DNA of 64,000 bases from Acidobacteria bacterium Ga0077551 (GTDB lineage: Bacteria; Pseudomonadota; Alphaproteobacteria; Caulobacterales; Hyphomonadaceae). A program made the translations under genes and the position numbers. The DNA lies in contig LNFC01000016.1 in assembly GCA_001464545.1 (NCBI GenBank), positions 1 to 64,000 of the forward strand, in the 5' to 3' direction. The notes under the pieces were generated by a model that saw only the letters and a program-made list of their open reading frames with translations, was not told the DNA's origin and ran no database searches. Below are positions 7,352 through 20,736 of this stretch, piece by piece. Position 1 is the first letter of the stretch. Each line of letters opens with the position of its first letter.

Positions 7352-8626
7352 ATGGCCAAGATAGTTGTTCTAGGCGCGGGCCTCGGCGGCGTGATCGCGG
7401 CCTACGAAATCCGGAAGGCCTTGAGGCCGGAGGACGATGTCACGGTCATCAATGAAAACGCGTTCTATCAGTTCGTGCCGTCGAACCCCTGGGTACTGGT
7501 CGGCTGGCGCGAGCGGGAGGACATCGTGGTCGATCTCGTGAAGCCCATGAAGAAGCGGCACATCGAACTGGTGGTCGGAAAAGCGGAACGCGTCGAGCCG
7601 GACCAGAAGCGCGTGCGCCTCGCGGGCGGACGGGAGGTGCCCTATGACTATCTGGTCATAGCGACCGGCCCAGAACTCGCCTTCGATGAAATCGAAGGCC
7701 TCGGCCCTCTGGGGCATACCCAATCGGTCTGTCACATCGACCACGCGGTTCAGGCAAACAAGGCCTTTGAAGCCTTTTGCAAAGATCCCGGACCGGTAAT
7801 CGTCGGCGCGGTTCAAGGCGCGTCCTGCTTCGGTCCGGCCTACGAAACGCTGATGATCATCGAGACCGAGCTGCGCCGCCGCAAGATCCGCGACCGCGTC
7901 CCGATGACCTATGTTACGTCAGAGCCGTACATTGGCCACCTTGGTTTGGATGGCGTCGGTGACACGAAAAGCCTGCTCGAAAGCGAGCTGCGCGAGCGTC
8001 ATATCAAATGGATCACCAATGCACGGGTCATCAAGGCCGAACCGGGCAAGATGACGGTCGAGGAACTCGGCGACGACGGCAATGTGAAACAGCTTCACGA
8101 ACTGCCGATGAAGTTCTCGATGATGCTCCCGGCATTCCGGGGCGTAGACGCCGTTCGCGGCATCGATGGCCTGACAAACCCGCGCGGCTTCATCCTGACG
8201 GACAAGCATCAGCGCAATCCGAAGTACCCGGAAGTTTTCGGTATCGGCGTTTGCATCGCGATCCCGCCAATCGGCAAGACACCGGTTCCCGTCGGCGTTC
8301 CCAAGACCGGCTTCATGATTGAATCGATGGTCACCGCGACAGCCGAAAATCTCGGCCAGATCGTCCGGGGCAAGGCGCCGACGCACGAGGCAACATGGAA
8401 TGCGATCTGCCTGGCAGACTTCGGGGACAAGGGGGTGGCCTTCGTCGCCCAGCCCCAGATACCGCCGCGCAACGTCAACTGGTCCGGATCGGGCGGATGG
8501 GTGCACACCGCGAAGGTCGGTTTCGAGAAATACTTCATCGGAAAGGTGAAAGCCGGAAAATCGGAAACCTTCTACGAGAATGCGGTTCTCGGTCTCATCA
8601 AGACACACAAGATCAAGGCGGATTGA
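7352..8626 (+). CDS. sqr: Sulfide:quinone oxidoreductase, type I
   Basis: A 424-residue FAD-dependent membrane-associated enzyme that oxidises sulfide to sulfane sulfur and passes electrons to quinone. The N-terminal dinucleotide fold GAGLGG is followed by FQ/YQFVPSNPWV-type residues typical of the family. All three catalytic cysteines of type I enzymes are in place: Cys127 (SVCHID), Cys159 (GASCFGPAYE) and Cys353 (NAICLADFGD). The blocks SEPYIGHLGLDGVGD and PPIGKTPVPVGVPKTGYMIES-like are also family signatures. The C-terminal helices would touch the membrane. GGGAGA precedes the ATG by 8 bases. It heads an operon with thioredoxin and DUF2892, divergent from the efflux genes. Confidence 0.95.
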   Translation: MAKIVVLGAGLGGVIAAYEIRKALRPEDDVTVINENAFYQFVPSNPWVLVGWREREDIVVDLVKPMKKRHIELVVGKAERVEPDQKRVRLAGGREVPYDYLVIATGPELAFDEIEGLGPLGHTQSVCHIDHAVQANKAFEAFCKDPGPVIVGAVQGASCFGPAYETLMIIETELRRRKIRDRVPMTYVTSEPYIGHLGLDGVGDTKSLLESELRERHIKWITNARVIKAEPGKMTVEELGDDGNVKQLHELPMKFSMMLPAFRGVDAVRGIDGLTNPRGFILTDKHQRNPKYPEVFGIGVCIAIPPIGKTPVPVGVPKTGFMIESMVTATAENLGQIVRGKAPTHEATWNAICLADFGDKGVAFVAQPQIPPRNVNWSGSGGWVHTAKVGFEKYFIGKVKAGKSETFYENAVLGLIKTHKIKAD

Positions 8627-8642: not shown

Positions 8643-9089
8643 ATGACCGGGCAAGACAGGAACATCCTTTGCCTCGCCTGCGGCGCCGTGAACCGTGTGC
8701 CGGCAGGCAAGTCCCTGGCGCCTGCAAAGTGCGGCCGGTGCGCCCAAAAACTTGCGACGCCGGAGCCAGTGGACATCACGTCCAGTCAGCTGACGGCCTT
8801 GAAGTCAAAGGATTCGGGCGCCTTTCTTCTCGATGTATGGGCGCCCTGGTGCGGACCTTGCCGCATGATGGCCCCGCATTATCAATCTGCGGCGTCCCGC
8901 CTGAATCCGGACGTGCGATTCTTCAAACTCGACTCCGATCAGAACCAGGACGCTGCTGCCAGCCTTCAGATCCGGGGTGTGCCAACCCTGATCGGATGGA
9001 ACGCCGGCCGGCAGATCGCAAACCAGCCCGGCGCCCAGACGGGCCCGGCCCTCGAAGCCTGGATCCGCAACCTCTTCAACCTTGCCTGA
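8643..9089 (+). CDS. trxC: Zinc-finger thioredoxin (thioredoxin 2/TrxC type)
   Basis: A 148-residue cytoplasmic thioredoxin. The N terminus carries two CxxC pairs (Cys10/Cys13 and Cys30/Cys33), the zinc finger that separates thioredoxin 2 from thioredoxin 1. The thioredoxin fold follows, with active site WCGPC (Cys70, Cys73) and the cis-proline region RGVPTLI. The ATG at 8643 is chosen because it directly precedes the finger and has an upstream AGAAAGG. A longer frame would run into the sqr coding end. It lies 16 bp after sqr, so it is probably cotranscribed and may reduce protein persulfides or carry sulfane sulfur from the oxidoreductase. That role is inference. Confidence 0.92.
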   Translation: MTGQDRNILCLACGAVNRVPAGKSLAPAKCGRCAQKLATPEPVDITSSQLTALKSKDSGAFLLDVWAPWCGPCRMMAPHYQSAASRLNPDVRFFKLDSDQNQDAAASLQIRGVPTLIGWNAGRQIANQPGAQTGPALEAWIRNLFNLA

Positions 9090-9472: not shown

Positions 9473-10198
9473 ATGTCGAGCCTTTCCGACGCAGAAGACG
9501 ACCGTGATCCCGACGACGCGGTCAGGGAAAAAGTCGCGGGCGAGACGCCCGAGAACGACAACCCGGCTGCGCGCGGCATTGATGCACTTCATGGATCGGC
9601 GTCCCACATCCTGCGCCAGATTTCCGAGCTCGCCGACGAAACCGAGATTTCCTTCGGCGCCATTGTCGATGCGCTCGAAGAGCGCGCGTTCGGCATGCTC
9701 ATATTCCTGTTTGCGATCCCCGCGCTGATCCCGTTCCTTGTGGGCATCCATTCGGCTGTCGCGTTGCCGATTGCGCTGCTCGCCATGCAGATGCTGGCCG
9801 GGCACCGCCGCCCCTGGCTGCCGAAACGCTTGCGCACGCAAACAATCAGCATGGCCACCTTCCGCAAGATGACGAACGCCGTGCACCCTTGGCTTCGGCG
9901 CATCGAGAAGCTGACAAAGCCCCGCCTGAAATTCCTCGCTGGCCGCGGCGCAGAACCCGTACTGGCCATCGTCATCCTGGTTTTTGCCGCCATCATCGCC
10001 ATACCCGGTCCGGGCACGAATGGTGTGCCGGGGCTGTGCGTCGCCCTGATCGCTCTCGCGATGATCGAGCGCGACGGCGTCCTCGCCATCATCGGCAGTG
10101 TCCTTGGCGCGCTCTATGCGGTGCTCCTGTTTACGCTGGGATATGCGGCGTTCGATTTCGTCATTCACCAGTTCATGCGCCTCTTCCAGGGCGGTTGA
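9473..10198 (+). CDS. exoD: ExoD-family exopolysaccharide synthesis protein
   Basis: A 241-residue inner-membrane protein. The first 45 residues are polar and acidic, followed by ExoD-family blocks: the membrane pair FGMLIFLFAIPALIPF, then LPIALLAMQMLAGHRRPWLPK, and a C-terminal set of helices (PVLAIVILVFAAIIAIPGPG, NGVPGLCVALIALAMIERDG, VLGALYAVLLFTLGYAAF). ExoD proteins affect exopolysaccharide production and alkali tolerance in rhizobia; the biochemical role is unknown. It follows the sulfide operon after 149 bp and precedes a sulfatase, with no sign of coupling to either. Confidence 0.85.
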   Translation: MSSLSDAEDDRDPDDAVREKVAGETPENDNPAARGIDALHGSASHILRQISELADETEISFGAIVDALEERAFGMLIFLFAIPALIPFLVGIHSAVALPIALLAMQMLAGHRRPWLPKRLRTQTISMATFRKMTNAVHPWLRRIEKLTKPRLKFLAGRGAEPVLAIVILVFAAIIAIPGPGTNGVPGLCVALIALAMIERDGVLAIIGSVLGALYAVLLFTLGYAAFDFVIHQFMRLFQGG

Positions 10199-10329
10199 AA
10201 TTCGCGCTCTCCGCTGCCGAGTCTTGATCCCGCGAGATAATGGCGTCATGCCTGTCAATTGATTGGGTCCGGGACCAGCGGAGCAACCGCGACCGGGGCC
10301 TGCTTGCAAAAGCAGATCGGGAGGCTGAG

Positions 10330-12093
10330 GTGAGAATACTTGTAGCAGCGATCGTTGCATTTTTCATGGTGGACGGAGAAGCCGCGCCTCAGGCAGATCC
10401 CGCGCCGGCACGCCCGAACTTCGTCGTCATGATCATCGACGACGCCGCCTTCATGGACCTTGGTGCCTATGGCGGCGAAGCGCGCACACCCAGCATTGAC
10501 GCCCTCGCCGCGCGCGGCGCGCTGTTCACCCGCTACTATTCCTCGCCGCTCTGCTCGCCCTCGCGCGCCATGCTCCTCACCGGCATGGACAACCACCTCA
10601 CCGGCGTCTCCACCATCCCCGAAGTCCTGCCCAGGGAACACGAAGGCCAGCCCGGCTACACCATGCGCCTCGAACCCGGCGTCGCCACGCTCGCCGAGCG
10701 CCTCAAGCCCCTCGGCTATCGCACGCTGATGACCGGCAAGTGGCATCTCGGCAGCGGCGAGGGCGATCTGCCGAAAGCCCACGGCTTTGACCGGTCCTTC
10801 GCCCTCGACGCCTCCGGCGCGGACAACTGGGAAGACAAGTCCTACATGCCGTACTACGCGGACGCGCCCTGGTACGAGGACGACGTGCCGGCCAGCCTGC
10901 CGGACGACTTCTATTCCTCCGAATTCATCGTCGACCAGATGATGACCTACATGGACGAAGGAGACGCCGAAGCGCCGTTCTTCGCCTACCTCGCCTTCAT
11001 GGCCGTCCACATCCCGGTGCAGGCCCCGCCGGAATTCACCGCGAACTATGCCGGCGTCTATGATGCCGGCTGGGAAGCCACCCGCACCGCCCGTTGGGAG
11101 CGCGCCAAGGAACGCGGCTACGTGCCCGCGGATGCCGCCCTCGCGCCGATGCCAGCCAACTTCCGCCCCTGGGAATCTCTTCCACCGGAAGAACAAAAGC
11201 TCTACGCCGCCCGGATGCAGGTAAATGCCGGCATGCTCGAAGCGATGGACCACCATATCGGCCGCTTGATCGAACACCTGAAATCCACGGGTCAGTATGA
11301 CAACACAGTCTTCGTCGTCACGTCCGACAACGGCCCGGAGCCTTCCCGCGGCGACACTGATCCGCGCCTCAAGTTCTGGATGGACATGAACGGCTACCAT
11401 CTCGATCTCGAAGGCATGGGCGAGAAAGGCAGCTGGGCGTTCATAGGCCCGGAATGGGCCATGGCTGCGGCCTCTCCGCATGACAAGTTCAAGTTCCTCG
11501 GCTCCGAAGGGGGCATCCGTGTGCCCTTCATCATGTCCGGCGCCGGTCTCGGCGAAGGGGGCCGCGTCGATGCGCGCGCCTTTGTGACCGATGTGGCGCC
11601 AACCCTTCTCGCGCTTGCGGGCGGCGAGCCGGAGCAAGACGGCGCCAAGCCGATGACCGGTCGCAGCCTCTTGCCCCTGCTACTCGGCGAGGCGGATAGC
11701 GTCTACGGCCCGGATGATGCCATCGTTATCGAAGTCTCGGGCAACGCCGCCGTCATCAAGGGCGACTACAAGCTGACCCGCAACCAGCTCCCACATGGCG
11801 ACGCCCGCTGGCGCCTGTATGATCTCTCCAGAGATCCGGGCGAAACGACAGACCTCAGCGCTTCGTTCCCTGAAGTATATGATGATCTGTCCACGGAGTA
11901 TGCGGCTTACAGCAAACGCGTCGGTGTTTTGGAAGTGCCGGAAGGTTACAATTCCCTCGACGAAGTCACCCGCCACTCGATCGTCCGGCAGCAGGAACGC
12001 TATAGGCCTTACCTGATCGGCGGCGGCCTCGCACTCTTTGCCCTCATTGCAGGCGGCCTGCTCCTCTGGCGCCGCCGCAAGCAAAGGGCTTGA
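10330..12093 (+). CDS. Exported arylsulfatase (AtsA-like) with C-terminal membrane anchor
   Basis: A 587-residue type I sulfatase. It hydrolyses sulfate esters and needs a formylglycine made from Cys75 in the motif C-S-P-S-R-AMLLTG. Asp37/Asp38 (IIDDAAF), TGKWHLG and TSDNGPEP supply the metal and catalytic residues. The order of blocks resembles Pseudomonas arylsulfatase AtsA. I chose the GTG at 10330 because GGGAGG sits five bases before it and the product then starts with a clean signal peptide (VRILVAAIVAFFMVDGEAAP). The last 25 residues form a hydrophobic helix followed by WRRRKQR, so the enzyme is probably held on the periplasmic side of the inner membrane. The matching formylglycine enzyme is encoded 3.6 kb downstream. 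Confidence 0.93.
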   Translation: MRILVAAIVAFFMVDGEAAPQADPAPARPNFVVMIIDDAAFMDLGAYGGEARTPSIDALAARGALFTRYYSSPLCSPSRAMLLTGMDNHLTGVSTIPEVLPREHEGQPGYTMRLEPGVATLAERLKPLGYRTLMTGKWHLGSGEGDLPKAHGFDRSFALDASGADNWEDKSYMPYYADAPWYEDDVPASLPDDFYSSEFIVDQMMTYMDEGDAEAPFFAYLAFMAVHIPVQAPPEFTANYAGVYDAGWEATRTARWERAKERGYVPADAALAPMPANFRPWESLPPEEQKLYAARMQVNAGMLEAMDHHIGRLIEHLKSTGQYDNTVFVVTSDNGPEPSRGDTDPRLKFWMDMNGYHLDLEGMGEKGSWAFIGPEWAMAAASPHDKFKFLGSEGGIRVPFIMSGAGLGEGGRVDARAFVTDVAPTLLALAGGEPEQDGAKPMTGRSLLPLLLGEADSVYGPDDAIVIEVSGNAAVIKGDYKLTRNQLPHGDARWRLYDLSRDPGETTDLSASFPEVYDDLSTEYAAYSKRVGVLEVPEGYNSLDEVTRHSIVRQQERYRPYLIGGGLALFALIAGGLLLWRRRKQRA

Positions 12094-12105
12094 GCAATCT
12101 TCATG

Positions 12106-12130
12106 ATTATGGCACCTATAGTGCCATAAT
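12106..12130. promoter_or_regulatory. Operator dyad, copy 1 (upstream of the isomerase-TetR-FGE operon)
   Basis: A perfect 10-bp inverted repeat, ATTATGGCAC and GTGCCATAAT, separated by CTATA. It lies 98 bp upstream of the first gene of the forward operon. CATAAT at 12125-12130, a possible -10 element, forms the end of the right arm. The core TGGCAC-N5-GTGCCA recurs in front of the haloalkane dehalogenase at 19734-19751. The TetR protein encoded at 15067 is the obvious candidate to bind both. The dyad is read directly; the binding protein is inference. Confidence 0.65.
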
Positions 12131-12227
12131 AACCGTTTAACACGAAAGGCTCGGGGAGCCGGATGGTCCACATTGCCTTCTTGCTCGCACATGGCGCACC
12201 CAGGCGCTTGGCAGGGGGCGTCCTCCC

Positions 12228-13505
12228 ATGTCCCTGAAAACCTTTCTGATTTCTCGGATTGCCGCGATCTTCACCAGCGAAAAGAGAGTGAAACGGAACC
12301 GAGCCATGCAGGAATCCCGGCGCCTCGCGGCCTCGGCGCCTCACACGGTCGAATATTTCCACGAAGCGGCGGATCCCTATTCGCACCTGGCCGCGCAGGT
12401 GCTGGCAGACCTCCTCGCGCGCTACGACATCGCGCTGCAGGTCCACCTCGTCGGCCCACCGGCCGACTGGGCCGCGCCGGAGCGCGAACGGCTGGAAGCC
12501 TACGCGCGGGTGGATGCCCAACGCCTTGCCCGCAAGGCGGGACTTAAGTTTGCGGATCCTGGCGCGCAGCCCGGCGCAGACCGCGTCCGGCACGCCAATG
12601 CGCGGCTGGCGGCTGCGATTGAGGCGGGCAGCTTTGCGAATGAAGCGCCCGCGATCGGCGAAGCGCTCTGGATCGGCACTCTTGAAGGCGAGGACGCACC
12701 CTCTGCAGACCTTGCCGCCGGCAATGCGCGCCGCGAGGAACTCGGCCACTATCTCGGCGGCACGTTCCACTATGGCGGCGAATGGTACTGGGGTGTCGAC
12801 AGGATGCACTATCTCGAGGCGCGTCTGATCGAACTCGGAGCCCGCAAGCCGGATACCGGCACTGCCCTGGTGTTTCCGCCGCCTGTCTCTCCCGCTGGCG
12901 GCGCGCGTCCGCCTGCGCCGCTGGAGCTGCACTATTATCTCTCCTTCAGAAGTCCGTACACGTACATCGTTGCCGCCCGGGCCAAGGCGCTCGCCGATGC
13001 CTACGGGGCAGAACTGAAGCTGCGATACGTTCTGCCCATGGTGATGCGCGGCCTGCCTGTGCCGCGCATGAAAAGCCGCTACATCACGTTCGATACCGCC
13101 CGCGAAGCGCGCCGCCACGGCGTCCCGTTCGGCAAGATCGCAGACCCGGTCGGCAAGCCCGTGGAGCGCGGCTATTCGATCCTGCCCTGGGCGCAGGCGC
13201 AGGGCAGGGGCTTTGAATTCTGTCAGGCCTTCCTCACCGGCGTCTGGTCGCAGGGCGTCGATGCCGGCAGCGATTCCGGCCTGTGCCAGATCGTCGAAGC
13301 TGCGGGCCTCGACTGGAACACCGCCCGCCAGCAGCTGGACACCGACACCTGGCGCACCGAAGCCGAAGCCAACCGCGCCGAAATGATGGCTCTCGGAGTC
13401 TGGGGCGTGCCCAGCTTCAGGGTGGGCGACGTGATCACCTGGGGGCAGGACCGCCTCTGGGTGATCGAGGAAGAATTGAAACGCCAGGCAGGACAATCCG
13501 TCTAA
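12228..13505 (+). CDS. Tandem DsbA-fold protein (two kappa-GST/HCCA-isomerase-like domains)
   Basis: A 425-residue protein containing the same thioredoxin-like fold twice. The first copy starts at about residue 39 (HTVEYFHEAADPYSHLAAQ) and the second at about residue 232 (LELHYYLSFRSPYTYIVAA). The SPY/DPYS motif at the first helix is typical of 2-hydroxychromene-2-carboxylate isomerase and kappa-class glutathione transferases, which are normally single-domain proteins of about 200-220 residues. The second copy keeps the family end motif WGVPSFRVGDVITWGQDRLW; the first is more divergent. A redox CxxC is absent, so it is probably not a disulfide oxidase. A glutathione-dependent isomerase or transferase acting on an aromatic or halogenated compound is plausible. 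It is the first gene of a five-gene operon. Confidence 0.85.
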   Translation: MSLKTFLISRIAAIFTSEKRVKRNRAMQESRRLAASAPHTVEYFHEAADPYSHLAAQVLADLLARYDIALQVHLVGPPADWAAPERERLEAYARVDAQRLARKAGLKFADPGAQPGADRVRHANARLAAAIEAGSFANEAPAIGEALWIGTLEGEDAPSADLAAGNARREELGHYLGGTFHYGGEWYWGVDRMHYLEARLIELGARKPDTGTALVFPPPVSPAGGARPPAPLELHYYLSFRSPYTYIVAARAKALADAYGAELKLRYVLPMVMRGLPVPRMKSRYITFDTAREARRHGVPFGKIADPVGKPVERGYSILPWAQAQGRGFEFCQAFLTGVWSQGVDAGSDSGLCQIVEAAGLDWNTARQQLDTDTWRTEAEANRAEMMALGVWGVPSFRVGDVITWGQDRLWVIEEELKRQAGQSV

Positions 13506-13517
13506 GGAGAAGTAGAC

Positions 13518-13976
13518 ATGCAGGTATTGAACGAAGTTTTCCCGACCGATCCCGCCCGGTTCTCGGCGATGATGGAGAAAGGCCCCGACGGCCCCATCTT
13601 CATGGTCAACCTTCTGAAATTCAAGGACAAGGCCGCGTATGACGACGGTCGCCCCTGCGATCTGTCCGGCCGCGATGCCTACATGATCTACGGCCGCGCC
13701 GTCACCGAACTCCTGCCGAAATTCGGCGGTCGCGGCATCTTTGCAGGCGACGTGACCTTCCTCGCACTCGGTCAGGTCGAGGAACTCTGGGACGAAGTCG
13801 CCATTGCTATGTATCCCGACCGCGCCTCGATGGTGCGCATGTCCCTCTCCGAAGAGTGGCGCGAAATCGCCGTGCACCGCTCTGCCGGCCTCAAAGGCCA
13901 GTTGAACATCGAAACCGTGCTGCCGCAGACGGGTGTTGCGTCACCCTTCCTCGACATGATCAAGGCGCTGGGCTGA
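13518..13976 (+). CDS. DUF1330 domain protein
   Basis: A 152-residue soluble protein. The block GPIFMVNLLKFKDKAAY and the later YGRAVTELLPKFGGRGIFAGDVTF match the DUF1330 ferredoxin-like fold, related to dimeric alpha-beta barrel enzymes such as antibiotic monooxygenases. No catalytic role is established for the family. It begins 12 bp after the isomerase gene with AAGGAGAAG as ribosome binding site and is followed after 4 bp by the hydrolase, so it belongs to the operon. Several DUF1330 members sit in catabolic operons, which agrees with the context. Confidence 0.85.
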   Translation: MQVLNEVFPTDPARFSAMMEKGPDGPIFMVNLLKFKDKAAYDDGRPCDLSGRDAYMIYGRAVTELLPKFGGRGIFAGDVTFLALGQVEELWDEVAIAMYPDRASMVRMSLSEEWREIAVHRSAGLKGQLNIETVLPQTGVASPFLDMIKALG

Positions 13977-13980
13977 GACC

Positions 13981-15066
13981 ATGGGACCCGTTCGCTGGAC
14001 ACTTCTTCTCGCAGGCGCCGCTGCCGTGCTCTTCTTCGCGGGCGCCCAGGTCTTCCGTGTGCAGATCTCGGAATTCCTATTCGAACGTGCGGTGAAGCAG
14101 AATGTCGGCCGCAACACCGCCACCAGTCTTGAGGACGGTCTCCACGTTTACGTTTGCGGTGCCGGTTCCCCGTTCCCCGACCCCCAGCGCGGCGGCCCCT
14201 GTCTTGCCCTCATCGCTGGCGACCAGCACATCATCATCGATGCAGGCTCCGGCGGCATCCGGACCTTGACCCGGATGGGCTATCCCGTCGCCGGGATTGA
14301 CGCGGTCTTCCTCACCCATCTGCACTCGGATCATATGGACGGCCTGGGCGAGCTTCTCATGCAGGCCTGGGTCAATGGCGGCCGGGATGTGCCGATGCCC
14401 GTCCACGGGCCAACCGGCGTCGAAGAAGTCGTGAACGGTTTCAACGCCGCCTACCGCATCGACAGTACCTATCGCACGGGCCATCACGGCCCCGAAATAG
14501 CCAACCCCGAAGGTCGCGGCGGCGCGCCCATCCCGATCACCATGCCCGCGGGCCCCGGCGGCCAGTCCGTTGTCTACGACGCGGGCGGCCTGACGATCAC
14601 CGCCTTTAAGGTCAGCCACGCCCCGGTTGAGCCGGCCTATGGGTACCGCGCTGACTACAAGGGCCGCTCGGTCTCGATCAGCGGCGATTCGATTTACGAT
14701 GCGAACCTCGTCGCCGTCTCCACCGGCGCGGACCTCCTGTTCCACGATGCACTGAACCCCGACATGGTTATCCGCATGCGCGAAGCCATGGCGGAGGCGG
14801 GCAGGGACGATCTCGCCAAGGTGCTGAACGACATCCTCGATTACCATGCGACGCCAGCAGATGCCGCCCGCGCGGCCCAGGATGCCGGCGCCGGCCGCCT
14901 TGTCCTTTACCACACCGTCCCTCCGCTGCCGTCACGTGCGCTAAACGCCTTGTTCATGAAGGACGCTCAGGCTCTATTTGACGGCCCGATGGAGGTCGCC
15001 GAAGATGGCCTCATCTACTCCCTGCCTGCGGCCACCGGGTCGATTGAAGTCAAGAAAGCGTTCTGA
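13981..15066 (+). CDS. Membrane-anchored metallo-beta-lactamase-fold hydrolase
   Basis: A 361-residue protein with one N-terminal transmembrane helix (about residues 6-24) that would place the catalytic domain in the periplasm. The metal site is intact: HLHSDHMDG at residues 113-121, with a later His in KVSHAPVEP and the aspartate of SISGDSIYDANL. The overall order of motifs resembles the RNase Z-like branch, which also includes some arylsulfatases, so hydrolysis of an ester or sulfate ester is possible. The substrate cannot be read from the sequence. It lies between DUF1330 and the TetR gene, and its stop codon directly abuts the TetR start. Confidence 0.88.
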   Translation: MGPVRWTLLLAGAAAVLFFAGAQVFRVQISEFLFERAVKQNVGRNTATSLEDGLHVYVCGAGSPFPDPQRGGPCLALIAGDQHIIIDAGSGGIRTLTRMGYPVAGIDAVFLTHLHSDHMDGLGELLMQAWVNGGRDVPMPVHGPTGVEEVVNGFNAAYRIDSTYRTGHHGPEIANPEGRGGAPIPITMPAGPGGQSVVYDAGGLTITAFKVSHAPVEPAYGYRADYKGRSVSISGDSIYDANLVAVSTGADLLFHDALNPDMVIRMREAMAEAGRDDLAKVLNDILDYHATPADAARAAQDAGAGRLVLYHTVPPLPSRALNALFMKDAQALFDGPMEVAEDGLIYSLPAATGSIEVKKAF

Positions 15067-15678
15067 ATGACCGACCTGAAAATTGTTCCGCTCGATCCTG
15101 CAGCCAAGTCCGACATCTCCGACGGACGACGCCAACGCAGCGAGCGTAGCCGCGCGCAGATCATCGAGGCGATGTTCAGCCTCATCCGCGAAGGCGAGAT
15201 GAGCCCCAGCGCCGCCCGCGTCGCCGAACGCGCCGAAGTCGGCCTGCGGACGGTCTTCCGCCATTTCGAGGATATGGACAGCCTCTATGTCGAGATGGCC
15301 GAGCGCATCTCATCGGAAGTGATGCCGAAAATCCTCGCGCCGTTCGAGGCGCGCGACTGGCGCGAACGTTTCTTCGAGCACATCGCCCGCCGTATCGAGA
15401 TCTACGAACACATCCTGCCCGTGCGGGTCTCGGCCAACCTTCGCCGCTTCCAGTCCCGCTTCCTGATGGAGGAATACCGCCGCAACCTCCTGATCGAGCG
15501 CTCGACCCTCACGGCGCTCCTGCCGGAGGAGATCAACAGCGATCCCGTCCTCTTCGCTGCGATCGAAACCTCTGCCAGCTTCCAGACATGGCGCCGTCTG
15601 CGCCAGGATTCGGACCTGACGCCGGAAGACGCCGGCATTGTCTTCAGGCTGATGCTGGAACGCCTCCTCGGCGCATGA
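15067..15678 (+). CDS. TetR-family transcriptional regulator
   Basis: A 203-residue regulator. The N-terminal helix-turn-helix is at about residues 28-74 (RSRAQIIEAMFSLI, then AARVAERAEVGLRTVFRHF and DMDSLY). The remaining helices form the ligand-binding and dimerisation domain. It is translated within the operon it probably controls: the ATG follows the hydrolase stop with no gap, and its own stop overlaps the FGE start (ATGA). The two matching dyads at 12106 and about 19734 are the likely targets, giving one regulator over the forward and reverse operons. The inducer is unknown, presumably a substrate of the dehalogenase or sulfatases. Confidence 0.92.
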   Translation: MTDLKIVPLDPAAKSDISDGRRQRSERSRAQIIEAMFSLIREGEMSPSAARVAERAEVGLRTVFRHFEDMDSLYVEMAERISSEVMPKILAPFEARDWRERFFEHIARRIEIYEHILPVRVSANLRRFQSRFLMEEYRRNLLIERSTLTALLPEEINSDPVLFAAIETSASFQTWRRLRQDSDLTPEDAGIVFRLMLERLLGA

Positions 15679-16607
15679 AGCGCGCGGGCGCGCTGCTCGT
15701 AGCGGCATTCCTTGGCGCATGCGGTGCCGCAGCGCCACCGGATGCTCAGCAGACTGATCTATCGCTGCAGACTTGCGGTCTGGACGCGGGGGCCATCGGC
15801 CAGTTCGTCAACGTCCCCGCCGGCCAGTACCGCAAGGGCGCCTACGCCGTCTATCCCGAAGAAGCGCCCGAGATGATCCTGCATATCGCAGGCTTCGAGA
15901 TGCTCGCCCATGAAGTCACCAATGCCGAGTTCGCCCGGTTCACTGAGGCAACCGGGTATCTGACGACGGCCGAGCGCAGCGCGGCGGCGGGTGGCCCCGG
16001 TGCGGGTTCCGCTGTGTTTCGTATGCCGGCCGAACGCGCGGCGCCCACCGACACCTGGCAGCTTATCCCCGGCGCAACCTGGCGCGCGCCCGAAGGTCCG
16101 GGGACGGATATTTCGGCGCGGGCGAATCATCCGGTCGTGCACGTCTCGCTGGCAGACGCCGAAGCCTACGCCGCATGGGCCGGCGCCCGGCTGCCGACCG
16201 AAGAGGAATGGGAATACGCCGCCGCCATAGGCCTACCAGATCCCGCCGACCCCCGGACAGGCGCCTACGACGCCTCAGGCAAACCCGTCGCCAATACCTG
16301 GCAAGGCATTTTCCCGGTTGCGGATCAAGCCTCTGACGGAGTCGCCGGCCGCGCCCCCGCAGGTTGCTTCGCGCCGAACGCCATCGGCCTCTACGACATG
16401 ATCGGCAATGTCTGGGAATGGACCGCCACGCCCTACCAGACAGGCGAGCACACGATCAAAGGCGGATCCTATCTGTGTGCGGACAATTTCTGCCGCCGCT
16501 ACCGGCCTGCCGCGCGTCAGCCCCAAGAGACGGACTTCTCCTCAAGCCATATCGGCTTCCGAATCGTGAGAGACGTAGGCCCGGCCAGCTCAAGCGCGCC
16601 GGAGTGA
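15675..16607 (+). CDS. Formylglycine-generating enzyme, predicted lipoprotein
   Basis: A 310-residue SUMF1/FGE protein, which converts a sulfatase active-site cysteine to formylglycine using oxygen and copper. The redox pair Cys268 and Cys273 lies in GGSYLCADNFCRRYRPAAR, with the five-residue spacing of true FGEs. The fold signatures HEVTNAEFARF, HPVVHVSLADAEAYAAWAG, RLPTEEEWEYAA and IGNVWEW are present. The N terminus is a lipoprotein signal with lipobox LGAC, so the enzyme should sit in the periplasm, whereas characterised bacterial FGEs are mostly cytoplasmic. The ATG at 15675 overlaps the TetR stop by four bases. It is the last gene of its operon and converges on the membrane gene at 16590 with an 18-bp overlap. 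Confidence 0.93.
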   Translation: MKRAGALLVAAFLGACGAAAPPDAQQTDLSLQTCGLDAGAIGQFVNVPAGQYRKGAYAVYPEEAPEMILHIAGFEMLAHEVTNAEFARFTEATGYLTTAERSAAAGGPGAGSAVFRMPAERAAPTDTWQLIPGATWRAPEGPGTDISARANHPVVHVSLADAEAYAAWAGARLPTEEEWEYAAAIGLPDPADPRTGAYDASGKPVANTWQGIFPVADQASDGVAGRAPAGCFAPNAIGLYDMIGNVWEWTATPYQTGEHTIKGGSYLCADNFCRRYRPAARQPQETDFSSSHIGFRIVRDVGPASSSAPE

Positions 16608-17024
16608 CATTGCCAGTAGCACCAGCAAAACAGGCACGCTGCCCAAAGTGACCCAGACCTCCGGGGGATGATGGCCACCTGCCAGATGCCCGCCCTTCGG
16701 GCCCCACATGTTCCAGGTGTGCAGGGCGCGTTCAAGGGCCAACAGGCCCAGCGCGAGGGGCACGAGCGAGCGGTAGCGCAAGGACACTGCGAGCAACATC
16801 AGTCCCCAGACGAATTGCGTTGTCCCGGCCCAGGCAAACAGGCTGACGATGGTGCGCTTGTCGCCGGAGAGGTCAAGCCCGGCAATCACGCCGGCGCCGC
16901 CGTCGGGCAGCCCTATGTGCAGCAATGCCGGAATGATCGTCGCGGCCGCAATGACGGTCAGCGCCCAGGCAGCTGCCTTCATGCCCCGATAGGAGTCGTT
17001 GGTGGAGGCGGGAAACAAGGACAT
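16590..17024 (-). CDS. Four-helix membrane protein of unknown function
   Basis: A 144-residue protein with four hydrophobic segments (about residues 17-36, 58-79, 83-99 and 122-140). A distinctive loop reads ERALHTWNMWGPKGGHLAGGHHPPE, whose histidines could bind a metal or quinone. I do not recognise a family. It starts 11 bp after the sulfatase stop and is the third gene of the dehalogenase-sulfatase operon. Its 3' end overlaps the FGE gene convergently. Confidence 0.75.
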   Translation of the reverse strand: MSLFPASTNDSYRGMKAAAWALTVIAAATIIPALLHIGLPDGGAGVIAGLDLSGDKRTIVSLFAWAGTTQFVWGLMLLAVSLRYRSLVPLALGLLALERALHTWNMWGPKGGHLAGGHHPPEVWVTLGSVPVLLVLLAMSLRRA

Positions 17025-17035
17025 GCCGGGCGCCC

Positions 17036-18694
17036 TCAGTTAGGCCACCAGACGATCTCGTCGCCGGCCGTCAGCTCCTCCGCGCCCGTCTTATCGATCG
17101 ACACCGGTATGTCCGAAGTCGACGCATACAGCGGCGCACGCGCATTCTCATGATGCCGGTCCAGCAGTGCCTGCAGTTCCGCCAGTTTCTCCGGCTCGCT
17201 CGCGGCGAGGTTCGTGGATTCGGTCGGATCCTTGCCAAGGTCAAACAACCAGGATTTGCCCTGCTTGCCGTCCACCTGAAGCTTCCAGTCGCCTGCCCGC
17301 ACCACGCGGTAATAGCCGCTCTGCCAGAACAGCGCATCGTCTGTGCGGGCGAGCCCGCCCACTCCCTCCGCCAACGGAAGAAGGCTGCGCCCGTCGATCT
17401 CCACGCCGGCCGGCAGGACCGCGCCTGCGGCTTCGGCCAGTGTCGGCGTCACATCGATATGCGCCACCGGCGTGTCGATCACCGTGCCTGCCGGAATACG
17501 GGCCGGCCAGCTCACGAACATCGGCACACGGATGCCGCCTTCGAACAGCGAGAGCTTCCAGCCGCGATAGGGGTCATTGATGCCCGCCAGATCGATATAA
17601 CCCGGGCCGCCATTGTCACTGGAAAACACGATGATCGTGTTCTCGGCGAGGCCCTCTTCTTCAAGCTTTGCAACAATCTGGCCGACGCTGCGGTCGAGCG
17701 CGCGCAGCATCGCGGCGTAGACCCGCAGCTTGTGCGAGCCGACATCGCCAACCGCGTCATAGTCTTCCTTCGTCGCCTGCAGCGGCGTGTGCACGCCCCA
17801 GTGGGCGAGATAGAGGAAGAAAGGCTGGTTCTTGTTGGCCTCGATCACCTTGAGAGATTCCGCGGTCCAGTAATCAGCAAGGTATCCGCCCGGCGCAAAG
17901 GTCGGTCCGCCATTGTAGGACGTCGAAAAATCGCCGCGGGCCCAGAGGAACTTGTCGATCGGATCCGTCTCGACCTTGGCGTTCACGACGCCCGGATCAT
18001 CGGCCGGCAGATGAAGCAGCCCTGTCATGTTGAGGCTTTCGTCGAAGCCTTGTGCATTCGGATGGAACTCGCCCGAATTGCCGAGATGCCACTTGCCGAT
18101 ATGAACGGTGTGGTAGCCCTTGTCTTTCAGCATTTCGGCGATCGTCACTTCCGAGCCAGGCAAGCCCTGGTCCGCGAAATCAGGAAGCGTGGCGGCCGCC
18201 TTCGGGTCATAGCCCACCTTCGGCCGCCCCCGCGTGTCTTCATTGGCGAACAGGGTGACGATCCGCCCCATGCCGTTCGGCGTCGGCGTGAATTCAAATC
18301 CTGTGCGTGTCGGATAGCGGCCCGTCAGCAGCATCGCGCGCGACGGCGCGCAGGTGCCCGTGCCGGAATAGGCCGTGGTGAAGTTTGCGCCGCGCGCCGC
18401 CAGCGCATCAATGTTCGGTGTCGGCACGCGCCCGTCCGCGACGCCGCCGCCAAAGGTCGTTATGTCGTTGATGCCGAGGTCATCGACGAGGATGAAAATG
18501 ATGTTCGGCGGCCGTTCCGCCGGTGCGGTCACGGCGGCGGCCGGTCCCTGCATCCAGGCTACCGGCTCGTAGGGCGCGATCTCCGGCCGGTCGGCGCGGG
18601 TGACCAGAAACAGGATGATCTCTTTCCGGAAGTAAAAGCCAAGCGCGCCCGCGCCTACAATTATCGCCAGGATTATCAGCAATATCCGTTTCAT
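17036..18694 (-). CDS. Membrane-anchored type I sulfatase
   Basis: A 552-residue sulfatase. The start at 18694 is chosen over a frame 62 codons longer because AAAGGGGG precedes it and it yields an N-terminal hydrophobic anchor (MKRILLIILAIIVGAGALGF) without a clear cleavage site. The catalytic part begins near residue 61 (RPPNIIFILVDDLG, Asp71/Asp72). The formylglycine motif is C-A-P-S-R-AMLLTGR at Cys115, with HIGKWHLG and SSDNGGPG further on. It is not closely similar to the other sulfatase at 10330, so it probably has a different substrate. It lies 19 bp downstream of the haloalkane dehalogenase in one operon. Activation would need the FGE at 15675. Confidence 0.93.
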   Translation of the reverse strand: MKRILLIILAIIVGAGALGFYFRKEIILFLVTRADRPEIAPYEPVAWMQGPAAAVTAPAERPPNIIFILVDDLGINDITTFGGGVADGRVPTPNIDALAARGANFTTAYSGTGTCAPSRAMLLTGRYPTRTGFEFTPTPNGMGRIVTLFANEDTRGRPKVGYDPKAAATLPDFADQGLPGSEVTIAEMLKDKGYHTVHIGKWHLGNSGEFHPNAQGFDESLNMTGLLHLPADDPGVVNAKVETDPIDKFLWARGDFSTSYNGGPTFAPGGYLADYWTAESLKVIEANKNQPFFLYLAHWGVHTPLQATKEDYDAVGDVGSHKLRVYAAMLRALDRSVGQIVAKLEEEGLAENTIIVFSSDNGGPGYIDLAGINDPYRGWKLSLFEGGIRVPMFVSWPARIPAGTVIDTPVAHIDVTPTLAEAAGAVLPAGVEIDGRSLLPLAEGVGGLARTDDALFWQSGYYRVVRAGDWKLQVDGKQGKSWLFDLGKDPTESTNLAASEPEKLAELQALLDRHHENARAPLYASTSDIPVSIDKTGAEELTAGDEIVWWPN

Positions 18695-18713
18695 GCCGCG
18701 TTCGCCCCCTTTG

Positions 18714-19700
18714 TTATCCCTGCCGCATGAAGGTGATGATCGCCTCGGAAAACGCGGCTGGCTGGTCTTCCTGCAGGAAGTGTCCGCCATTTTTGATGGT
18801 GACACAATCGGCGCCAGGAATGCGGGCCTTGAAAATTGCGTCGCCGCCCTTGGTGACCGGGTCGGCGTCGCTGAACGCAATCAGCGTGCGGCCTTGAAAC
18901 GCCTCGAGCACCGCCCAGGCGCGGTCATTCGCCAGCCGGTCTTCCTTGTGCTGCGGCAGCAGCGGCACCAGCGCCGGAAACTGCCGCGCGCCCGCGATAT
19001 AGCGATCATCTGGGAACGGAGCGACATAGCCATCGAGGATCCGTGCATCTGTCACGCCCGACAGCATTCCGAACACATCGCGTACGGAGAAGGAGGGCGA
19101 CTCGCTGGCATACTTCACCCAGTAGAGGAACGCCCCCGGCCCGCCGGACTGGAACTGCTCGCGCACCATGGCCGCATCTGGCACCGGCACAGCCGGATAC
19201 ATCTGACCCAGAAACGCCGACATATCGTCCGAAATCATCGCCGTGCTTGGCAGGCCCGTGTTGGCAACTACGATCCGCTTGAACCGGCCAATCTGATCCG
19301 CCGCGACACGCAGGCCAATCAGTCCGCCCCAATCCTGACAGACCAGCGTCAGGCCGCCGAGGTCCATCTTCGTCAGCCACTGGCCCAGCCAGTCCACATG
19401 CCGCGCATAGGTATAGTCGGCCATCGCGCCCGGCTTGTCGGATTTGCCGAAACCGATCAGGTCCGGCGCCAGAACGCGGTAGCCTGCGTTCGTCAGTAGA
19501 GGGATCATCTTGCGATAGAGATAGCTCCACGAAGGCTGACCATGCAGGCAGAGGATCGGCTCGCCGTCCTTCGGGCCCTCGTCGAGGTAATGCATCCGCA
19601 TCGCCTCACCGCCCGGGCCGGCAATGTCGACATAGTGCGGCGCAAACCCGTACTCGAACAGGGCGTCGAATTGCGCGTCAGGTGTTCTCAGAATCTGCAA
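18714..19700 (-). CDS. Haloalkane dehalogenase, DhlA-like (HLD-I)
   Basis: A 328-residue alpha/beta hydrolase that would replace a halogen on an alkyl carbon with hydroxyl. The TTG at 19700 is chosen as start because the product then begins M-Q-I-L-R-T-P-D, matching the N terminus of Xanthobacter DhlA, and GGAG lies upstream. The frame can be extended to a TTG at 19742, but that codon is inside the promoter dyad. The oxyanion loop is LHGQPSWSYLYRKM. The nucleophile is Asp123 in CQDWGG, and the next residue, Trp124, corresponds to a halide-binding tryptophan. The acid is probably in FSDADPVTKGG and the base is the histidine of GGHFLQED. It has no signal peptide, so it is cytoplasmic. It leads the operon with the anchored sulfatase. 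Confidence 0.87.
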   Translation of the reverse strand: MQILRTPDAQFDALFEYGFAPHYVDIAGPGGEAMRMHYLDEGPKDGEPILCLHGQPSWSYLYRKMIPLLTNAGYRVLAPDLIGFGKSDKPGAMADYTYARHVDWLGQWLTKMDLGGLTLVCQDWGGLIGLRVAADQIGRFKRIVVANTGLPSTAMISDDMSAFLGQMYPAVPVPDAAMVREQFQSGGPGAFLYWVKYASESPSFSVRDVFGMLSGVTDARILDGYVAPFPDDRYIAGARQFPALVPLLPQHKEDRLANDRAWAVLEAFQGRTLIAFSDADPVTKGGDAIFKARIPGADCVTIKNGGHFLQEDQPAAFSEAIITFMRQG

Positions 19701-19723
19701 GGCTCCGGCCTCCCCGCCAGCGT

Positions 19724-19757
19724 ATTTTATAATATGACACAATTAGTGCCAATAAAA
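19724..19757 (-). promoter_or_regulatory. Promoter with overlapping operator dyad, copy 2
   Basis: Read on the reverse strand, TTGGCA (19752-19747), 17 bases and TAAAAT (19729-19724) make a good sigma-70 promoter, one mismatch from consensus in each hexamer. The dyad TGACAC-N5-GTGCCA at 19735-19751 on the plus strand covers the -35 and most of the spacer, an ideal place for a repressor. The half-sites match the perfect dyad at 12106 in all but one core position, and both have a 5-bp AT-rich centre. The promoter would start the dehalogenase transcript about 17 bases before the TTG start. Confidence 0.65.
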
Positions 19758-19878
19758 GGCGGGGTCAATCCGCATTTATTGCAGGCCTCTCGCTTTCGCT
19801 CCTCGAGTCCATTCGCCCTTCATCGACAAAGCCGAAAACTGCCGTACAATCATCAGTCTGGCGGCCTGGGAGGCGCAA

Positions 19879-20736
19879 GTGAACAAGCGGCAGTCGAAGA
19901 TACTTGGCGTCCTGCAGTGGATTTTCTACCCTGTCAGTGCCGTGATGCTCTTGGCCTTTCTCGCCGACTTTTTCGGCGGCTATCGCTACTGGACCGAGCA
20001 TGTATGGGACTTCTTCGATAGGGTCGAAGATCCGATCGCGATCATCGTCATCCTGATCTTCTACATCGTACTCGCGGCGCTCTTCTGGCAGTTTCTGCTG
20101 ATCGAGTTTTCGCGTCGGCGCCAGCGGCGAAAATTAGGCACCCTGCTGATTGAACTCTATCCCAACCGCTTCGCTACCCGCTTCATCCTCCCGCTCTTGG
20201 CGCTTTTCTTTGTGGTGGGCTTGAATGCAATGATATTTGTTCCGGGCACGACAGATCTTGATATCGCTGCCATTGGACTGGAAGCTTGGCTCTATTTGTT
20301 CTTTTTTTACCTGGTCGCGCATTTCCTGCTGATTGCCTTCAGCCTTGGCGCCGTCCGGCATCTCCCTTTCTTCATCGCGACCGACGAGGGCTTTGTCTAC
20401 GAGCCGGGCGATGTGTCGTCTGGTCTCATCCAGTGGAGCGACATTTCAGAAGGCGCCGAAGCCCCCCTGCTGACAAGTGGTACCACGAACATCGGCGGCC
20501 CGCGAACGGCGCCCACAATCGTCTTGTCCCTAAAAGATCCAGAATCCGTCTTCGCGGCCTACAACCCACTCCTACGCAGCCTGAACAAGTTCGCGACAGG
20601 AGTCGTAAAGTACCAGTCCGGTGGCGTCGGCGACATAATTCTCGCGGCAGAGGATTTTGGCCGGCACTATGATGAAGTCCGCACGCTCATCCGAAGGAAG
20701 CTCGGGGGTCGCTGGAGAAATCAGCTTCCTGATTGA
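19879..20736 (+). CDS. Membrane protein of unknown function
   Basis: A 285-residue protein starting at a GTG with a strong GGGAGG nine bases upstream. It has four transmembrane helices (about residues 13-31, 49-71, 97-115 and 134-156), then a soluble C-terminal domain of about 115 residues. That part (FFIATDEGFVYEPGDVSSGLIQWSDISEG) looks like a PH-like fold found in some small bacterial membrane proteins. I do not recognise a function. Codon use includes rarer A/T-ending codons, making it more AT-rich than its neighbours. It ends one base before the 3' end of the broken kynureninase gene. Confidence 0.75.
   Translation: MNKRQSKILGVLQWIFYPVSAVMLLAFLADFFGGYRYWTEHVWDFFDRVEDPIAIIVILIFYIVLAALFWQFLLIEFSRRRQRRKLGTLLIELYPNRFATRFILPLLALFFVVGLNAMIFVPGTTDLDIAAIGLEAWLYLFFFYLVAHFLLIAFSLGAVRHLPFFIATDEGFVYEPGDVSSGLIQWSDISEGAEAPLLTSGTTNIGGPRTAPTIVLSLKDPESVFAAYNPLLRSLNKFATGVVKYQSGGVGDIILAAEDFGRHYDEVRTLIRRKLGGRWRNQLPD

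Follow-up and report, generated by a model that had tools for sequence, protein, structure and literature searches.

A TetR-family regulator and a conserved inverted repeat as the probable control of a sulfatase, formylglycine-generating enzyme and dehalogenase cluster in Hyphomonadaceae

Introduction

The first 64,000 nucleotides of contig LNFC01000016.1 (GenBank assembly GCA_001464545.1, Acidobacteria bacterium Ga0077551, assigned by GTDB to the Hyphomonadaceae), here called the window, carry two facing operons that encode a sulfatase, a formylglycine-generating enzyme (FGE), a haloalkane-dehalogenase-like hydrolase (HLD) and a regulator of the TetR family. A first-pass annotation of this DNA proposed that the TetR protein acts on both operons through one short dyad that lies in front of each. 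In this paper the cluster, the dyads and their distribution among related bacteria are described, and it is judged very likely that the TetR protein encoded at 15067-15678 regulates operons 1 and 2, and through a weaker copy the sulfatase gene SUL1, by way of a 25-bp inverted repeat. The assembly has a size of 3.08 Mb, is 92% complete and comes from the same genus as two of the genomes compared with it (G012 and G013).

Organization of the gene cluster

The features of the cluster are listed in the order of their coordinates; the matrix scores are explained in the next section.

10237..10261, plus strand: third, weaker candidate operator, ATAATGGCGTCATGCCTGTCAATTG, before SUL1 (matrix score 19.0, the third in the window)
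10240..12093, plus strand: SUL1, sulfatase of the Cys type with the motif CSPSR (Pfam PF00884, 198 bits; C-terminal membrane helix by inspection)
12106..12130, no strand assigned: operator 1, ATTATGGCAC-CTATA-GTGCCATAAT (matrix score 25.5)
12228..13505, plus strand: DSBA-like protein, first gene of operon 1 (Pfam PF01323, 79.6 bits), presumably resembling 2-hydroxychromene-2-carboxylate isomerases
13518..13976, plus strand: DUF1330-like protein (Pfam PF07045, 22.3 bits, slightly below the cut-off of 23)
13981..15066, plus strand: metallo-beta-lactamase-fold (MBL) hydrolase (PF12706, 67 bits; N-terminal membrane anchor by inspection)
15067..15678, plus strand: TetR-family regulator, with the recognition-helix region VGLRTVFRHF
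15675..16607, plus strand: FGE (PF03781, 211.5 bits) with a lipoprotein-like N terminus
16590..17024, minus strand: small membrane protein, last gene of operon 2, found in several relatives and matching no Pfam or NCBIfam family
17036..18694, minus strand: SUL2, sulfatase of the Cys type with the motif CAPSR (PF00884, 189.8 bits; start ATG 18694)
18714..19700, minus strand: HLD (NCBIfam NF002043, 407.7 bits, cut-off 265)
19731..19755, no strand assigned: operator 2, AATATGACAC-AATTA-GTGCCAATAA, with the core TGACAC-AATTA-GTGCCA at 19735-19751 (matrix score 26.8, the best in the window)
19740..19768, minus strand: probable promoter of operon 2, TTGACC (19768-19763), 17 bp, TAATTG (19745-19740), the latter within the dyad

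Operon 1 (plus strand, 12228-16607) is composed of the DSBA-like, DUF1330-like, MBL hydrolase, TetR and FGE genes, the first four being separated by 12, 4 and 0 nt, whereas the TetR stop and the FGE start overlap within the 4-nt sequence ATGA. Operon 2 (minus strand, 19700 down to 16590) faces it and contains the dehalogenase, sulfatase and membrane protein genes; the gaps in the operons overall are 0-19 nt. This gene order is as the first-pass annotation gave it and is borne out by the open frames and the family matches. The MBL hydrolase matches 14 NCBIfam families and falls under the cut-offs of all of them. Judged from the reading frames, the true start of SUL1 is probably GTG 10330, which would open a signal peptide, and that of the HLD is likely TTG 19700, in an open frame that extends to 19742.

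The extent of about 7.6 kb that was first assigned to the controlled unit is probably too small, as it omits the upstream sulfatase at 10240, which has the weaker site before it, and as sites in relatives also lie elsewhere. With the third site before SUL1, a weaker candidate recognized by its sequence and newly described here, the stretch under control would possibly reach about 9.5 kb. On the other side of the cluster, a hypothetical protein (19879-20736) is encoded divergently from operator 2. It is absent at the same place in the relative L041 and is therefore probably outside the regulon.

The operator in the window and in the assembly

Both dyads were found where they had been placed originally, at 12106-12130 and 19735-19751. 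Five matches to the core with at most one mismatch (at three places) are present in the window against 0.63 expected, and none of 100 shuffles reaches five. The exact core TGRCAC-N5-GTGYCA occurs at three places in the whole assembly, namely the two dyads and one place inside a 1,776-nt open frame, so that the dyads are its only exact copies outside long open frames. With its flanks included (WWWTGRCAY-N5-RTGYCAWWW), the pattern matches the assembly exactly twice, at operators 1 and 2. The core alone with one mismatch showed no genome-wide enrichment (12 places against 32 for a mirrored control, which is a poor control for composition), and the case therefore rests on the position of the sites, their flanks and the relatives.

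Sites were scored with a 25-column matrix trained on 123 sites from relatives, from which the window and its five nearest relatives were excluded. Operators 1 and 2 are the two highest-scoring places in the window, and the maximum in 100 random 64-kb sequences (6.4 Mb) was 15.1. The flanked pattern with up to two mismatches is found at 13 places in the genome, including the three window operators and a window place that scores 7.1. Four of the remaining nine candidates were scored and set aside: three (15.0, 16.0 and 13.4) lie within open frames longer than 1,300 nt, and the fourth scores 9.1.

Conservation of the operator with the TetR lineage

The TetR protein was searched for in 101 genomes, and 53 of them, the own genome included, had a match at E 1e-25 or better. 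From the other 52 genomes 53 regions were fetched (two from G059), and the best 80 of 139 named TetR loci were added, giving after merging 107 distinct loci (31 from the genome set and 76 from the named set). The five nearest named loci are labelled Hyphomonas sp. (two), Candidatus Sulfopaludibacter (two) and Acidobacteria (one); the last two labels look misassigned.

The exact pattern WTGRCAY-N5-RTGYCAW is present in 61 of the 107 loci (85 matches). When the spacer was set to 0-4 or 6-11 the motif was found in 0-4 loci each, and 300 permuted half-sites gave a mean of 0.31 loci and a maximum of 9. Most of the exact matches (73/85) stand before a cluster gene and none lies inside one. Allowing one mismatch, 86 loci have a site before a cluster gene; a matrix site of 18 or more is present in 94, most of which also trained the matrix. 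The check that the first-pass annotation had suggested, that relatives with the same genes keep the dyads, came out positively in most relatives.

A class-wide search provided places outside this training. TetR matches at E 1e-25 were found in 22 of 385 genomes (26 places, 23 of them outside the loci already fetched), and all 23 were fetched. L248, L250 and L251 overlap training loci, which leaves 20 held-out places; one of these, L253, shares its genome with one of the three. In 14 of the 20 a site scoring at least 17 lies within 5 kb of the TetR gene, namely in all 14 whose TetR matches at E below 1e-29 and in none of the six weaker ones. The 20 controls, chosen from weak TetR-family matches to represent other TetRs, have no site and a maximum score of 7.4 (Fisher 1.7e-6 for held-out against control places). 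The sharp boundary in E points to a single TetR lineage as the carrier of the operator.

Presence and absence were also compared in 42 genomes of the genus. The strict site is found in 23 of the 34 genomes with an intact TetR and in one of the eight without (Fisher 0.007), and SUL2 (at E 1e-100) in 32 of the 34 and one of the eight, where it is broken. This test is weaker than the held-out test because TetR and the cluster genes are linked.

Several observations weigh against control by TetR through these sites. No site of 18 or more is present in 13 of the 107 loci. Seven of these keep cluster genes, three with lower-scoring sites (L169, 17.4; L092, 15.7; L152, 15.0) and four on contig ends or short contigs (L115, L147, L111 and L138); the other six (L151, L170, L124, L071, L093 and L174) have no recognized cluster gene. 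The six weakest class-wide TetR relatives all lack a site, G012 has the TetR and no strict site anywhere in its genome, and G031, 90% complete and without TetR, keeps the dyad before a remote HLD. The third window site is weak and was found to be absent in four of seven relatives (L042, L047, L048 and L049); it is kept in L041 and L043 and weak in L045. As a genome-wide marker the loose WTGRCAY-N5-RTGYCAW was rejected, since it is unspecific, with 0-4 copies in genomes without an intact TetR, and the flanks or the matrix are therefore needed. Finally, the counts across loci are not independent because the loci share descent.

Two of these genomes are described further. In L093 (G009:C1) the TetR gene, at about 9961-10525, is broken into pieces, and the genome has no strict site and no recognized cluster genes nearby. 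In L237 (G031:C2) a perfect dyad stands at 7688 before the HLD, in the genome whose SUL2 is broken. The G031 dyad may reflect a recent loss of the regulator or a gap in the assembly, or it may speak against the TetR.

The alternative that survives best is that another regulator binds the dyads and that TetR merely travels with the cluster. The physical linkage of TetR with the cluster genes, whose co-inheritance by itself proves little, speaks for it, as do the dyad kept in G031 and the six siteless loci among the 13 TetR loci that lack recognized cluster genes. The other seven of those 13 do have sites, which in L073 and L077 stand directly before TetR itself, and sites are also found near TetRs of only 31-39% identity (L254-L260). 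In L260, where the TetR is 31% identical, a sulfatase, TetR, an HLD and a divergent gene resembling glutathione S-transferase (GST-like, labelled by inspection) are accompanied by two strong sites. Within the TetR protein, the recognition-helix region belongs to the best conserved parts, and no second regulator was found among the ten window proteins scanned against Pfam and NCBIfam. We therefore regard binding by another regulator as improbable, and action of the TetR on both operons through the dyads, as first proposed, is strongly supported by the comparison; that it is a repressor and the pathway inducible we infer from its family and from the overlap of the dyads with promoters.

The TetR protein

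The Pfam model of the N-terminal helix-turn-helix domain, PF00440, matches the TetR protein at 19.7 bits, under the cut-off of 24. Structure prediction and fold comparison, carried out for this protein, gave a model of ten helices in an all-helical two-domain fold (pLDDT 91.1, pTM 0.81). The 50 matches shown in the comparison with the PDB were transcriptional regulators, mostly of the TetR type by title, and the best of them (2np5, E 1.4e-4, TM 0.62) was the only one with E below 0.001; no close relative with a solved structure was found in this comparison. The fold comparison nevertheless points to a TetR-type protein. A palindromic operator near the regulator's own or a neighboring operon is also present.

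Promoters and proposed regulation

The probable promoter of operon 2 has its TA at the center of the dyad, and the arrangement TTGAC(C/G)-N17-TA is shared by the window and all eight of the aligned near relatives. The first-pass annotation had read a promoter TTGGCA-N17-TAAAAT on the second dyad. These letters are present in the sequence; TTGGCA is, however, a half-site of the dyad, and TAAAAT is not kept in the eight aligned relatives. As a -10 element it was rejected (TAAAAT in the window, TAAAAC in L041, different in the other relatives), and the promoter was probably misplaced. TTGAC stands 11-16 bp before the 25-mer at 57 of 202 sites, and for this reason the arrangement is not taken to be general. 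The 202 sites were also examined for a TATAAT-like -10 that would lie beyond the dyad at a constant distance, and none was found. An overlap of promoter and dyad would suit repression by blocking of the polymerase.

It is proposed that the TetR protein is a dimeric local regulator that would bind a 25-bp inverted repeat, WWWTGRCAY-N5-RTGYCAWWW, where this overlaps the promoters of operons 1 and 2. It would most likely keep both repressed until it is released by a small ligand, either a substrate or a product of the pathway. As a member of operon 1, the TetR gene would itself be repressed. Repression is considered most likely because of the analogy with the family and because the dyads cover promoter elements. 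The sites, their position and their conservation with the TetR lineage, together with their absence from the control loci, are direct observations; from these we infer physical binding, repression, an inducer and enzymes acting in one pathway.

The half-site TTGRCA is identical or nearly identical to a -35 hexamer, and the dyads might be -35 elements (TTGACA) that are palindromic by chance. This is highly improbable, as the spacing at which the inverted second half recurs is fixed and the 57 sites mentioned above have a TTGAC box of their own further upstream. Least probable of all are sigma-54 promoters, whose consensus TGGCAC-N5-TTGCA (GG at -24 and GC at -12, 10 bp apart) resembles TGGCAC-N5-GTGCC: GG and GC ten bases apart are found in operator 1, in 32 of 131 sites and in every site of 17 of 85 loci, but the pair is absent from the other 99 sites, no site fits in 59 loci, operator 2 (TGACAC) misfits the pattern, and the arms of the motif are AT-rich on both sides (in a matrix that was made symmetric, yet with both strands matching at single sites such as operator 1), and the alternation of A and G at this position largely refutes it.

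The wider regulon in relatives

Outside the fetched clusters there are 13 strict sites, all of which were read. They precede HLD genes (L228, L229, L232, L233 and L237), MBL hydrolase genes (L227 and L231), a gene for a thiamine pyrophosphate (TPP) enzyme (L226) and one for a DUF3604 protein (L235). In L230 the site precedes an MBL hydrolase gene that itself lies behind an SMP-30 gene, and in L236 it precedes a DUF1330-like gene (no Pfam match) that faces MFS and P450 genes. L234 has a weaker site (19.9) before a SUL1 and the strict site beyond its end at the contig edge, and the L238 sequence is a fragment of the main cluster. Of the in-cluster sites without an initial assignment, most lead to a GST-like gene, and this gene often precedes SUL2. 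Sites scoring 19.5-20.8 also stand before TonB receptor genes (L126 at 13326; L157 at 5712 and 5784), and these receptors are possibly the uptake part of the regulon. That the operator of relatives also stands before two TonB receptor genes, and before remotely placed genes for dehalogenases, hydrolases and GST-like proteins, is newly described here.

In a census of 136 loci, 209 sites score at least 18, and 202 of them precede a gene of a regulon type (SUL1 38, DSBA 35, GST 34, HLD 32, DUF1330 29, TetR 19, SUL2 10, the rest smaller). These counts are partly circular, as most of the loci trained the matrix, 13 were fetched because they had sites, and eight of the query proteins were chosen once the genes behind the sites had been seen. 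The specificity of the matrix suffices for finding further members of the regulon in the genomes of relatives.

In L252 a related TetR, accompanied by two sites at 8880 and 9622, has as its neighbors not sulfatases but a pair of TPP-enzyme-like and SDR-like genes on one side and an enoyl-CoA-hydratase-like gene on the other (names by inspection). The operator may here have been put to another use.

Predicted chemistry of the cluster

Cys-x-Pro-Ser-Arg is the core motif of the type I sulfatases that need FGE, and it is present in both SUL1 and SUL2. In the FGE, SYLCADNFC aligns with SYMCHRSYC of 5ssy, the Cys pair being the active-site pair of these enzymes, and its best solved matches are FGEs. 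The N terminus carries a lipobox-like signal (LGAC), read from the sequence. Among 64 cluster FGEs, 56 have such a motif in their N-terminal extension according to a simple, loose pattern in which chance matches are possible. The FGE may act outside the cytoplasm because this motif precedes its domain; to our knowledge an extracytoplasmic lipoprotein FGE is unusual among bacterial FGEs. Export or membrane signals are recognized by inspection in the FGE, SUL1 and SUL2.

The best solved match of SUL2 is a carrageenan S1 sulfatase (E 8e-75). No glycosidase was found among the ten cluster proteins scanned against Pfam and NCBIfam, and SUL2 likely has a substrate other than carrageenan. The catalytic residues of the HLD-I subfamily are a nucleophile followed by Trp, a second Trp, an acid and a His. 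In the window HLD, CQDWGG, the W of YWVKY, DADP and GGH align with 5esr, and its solved relatives are 5esr, 6f9o and 4mj3.

The enzymes of the cluster thus look, by their sequences, as if built to remove sulfate and halogen from organic molecules. The FGE would mature both exported Cys-type sulfatases, which would free organic sulfate ester, and the dehalogenase and the accessory hydrolases would work on the desulfated product. One tentative idea, which we consider unlikely, is that the regulon serves the catabolism of halogenated algal sulfate esters such as chlorosulfolipids, in which an exported lipoprotein FGE would activate two exported sulfatases that take off the sulfate, the dehalogenase, together with the GST-like proteins and hydrolases of relatives, would take off the halogens, and TetR would be the sensor of the lipid. 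Chlorosulfolipids are an existing class of molecules with both sulfate and halogen; PMC13413282 cites freshwater chrysophytes as their producers and reports them in coastal water during blooms. No literature linking chlorosulfolipids to such genes was found in the one open-access library searched. If true, this idea would supply a natural substrate for the HLD-I enzymes found in Hyphomonas-like bacteria and in sphingomonads.

The cluster is very probably one co-regulated pathway, in which the enzymes would act together. A single operator that is conserved in several orders of one bacterial class joins sulfatases and their maturase, haloalkane dehalogenases and GST-like proteins, families that are usually studied apart. 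This suggests that the enzymes sharing the operator meet the same substrate, and the inducer of the TetR would therefore point to the natural substrate of a subfamily of dehalogenases about whose function in these bacteria little is known.

Comparison with known systems

TetR-family proteins often control local regulons, repressing their own operon and its neighbors through one palindrome, as in TetR/tetA. The system described here is well supported as a TetR regulon of this ordinary kind with an unusually informative set of genes; no description of such a sulfatase/FGE/dehalogenase TetR regulon was found in the open-access literature searched. With TetR/tetA and with bkaR and kstR of mycobacteria it shares general features, namely the TetR fold, a short inverted repeat over promoters and a regulator gene inside the controlled cluster. 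The target genes differ.

The FGE resembles the aerobic FGEs (5ssy, 1y1e and 2q17) in its catalytic domain and aligned Cys pair and differs from them in that the cluster FGEs have a lipobox-like motif before the domain. SUL2 is likened to the carrageenan S1 sulfatases 6prm and 9fo1, which are its best solved matches. The HLD scores far above the cut-off of the subfamily represented by 5esr, 6f9o, 4mj3 and DhlA (1b6g), which we take to be HLD-I, and its CQDWGG and GGH align with 5esr and 6f9o. Unlike those enzymes, the window HLD, for which dehalogenation is predicted, is tied by one operator to sulfatases and an FGE.

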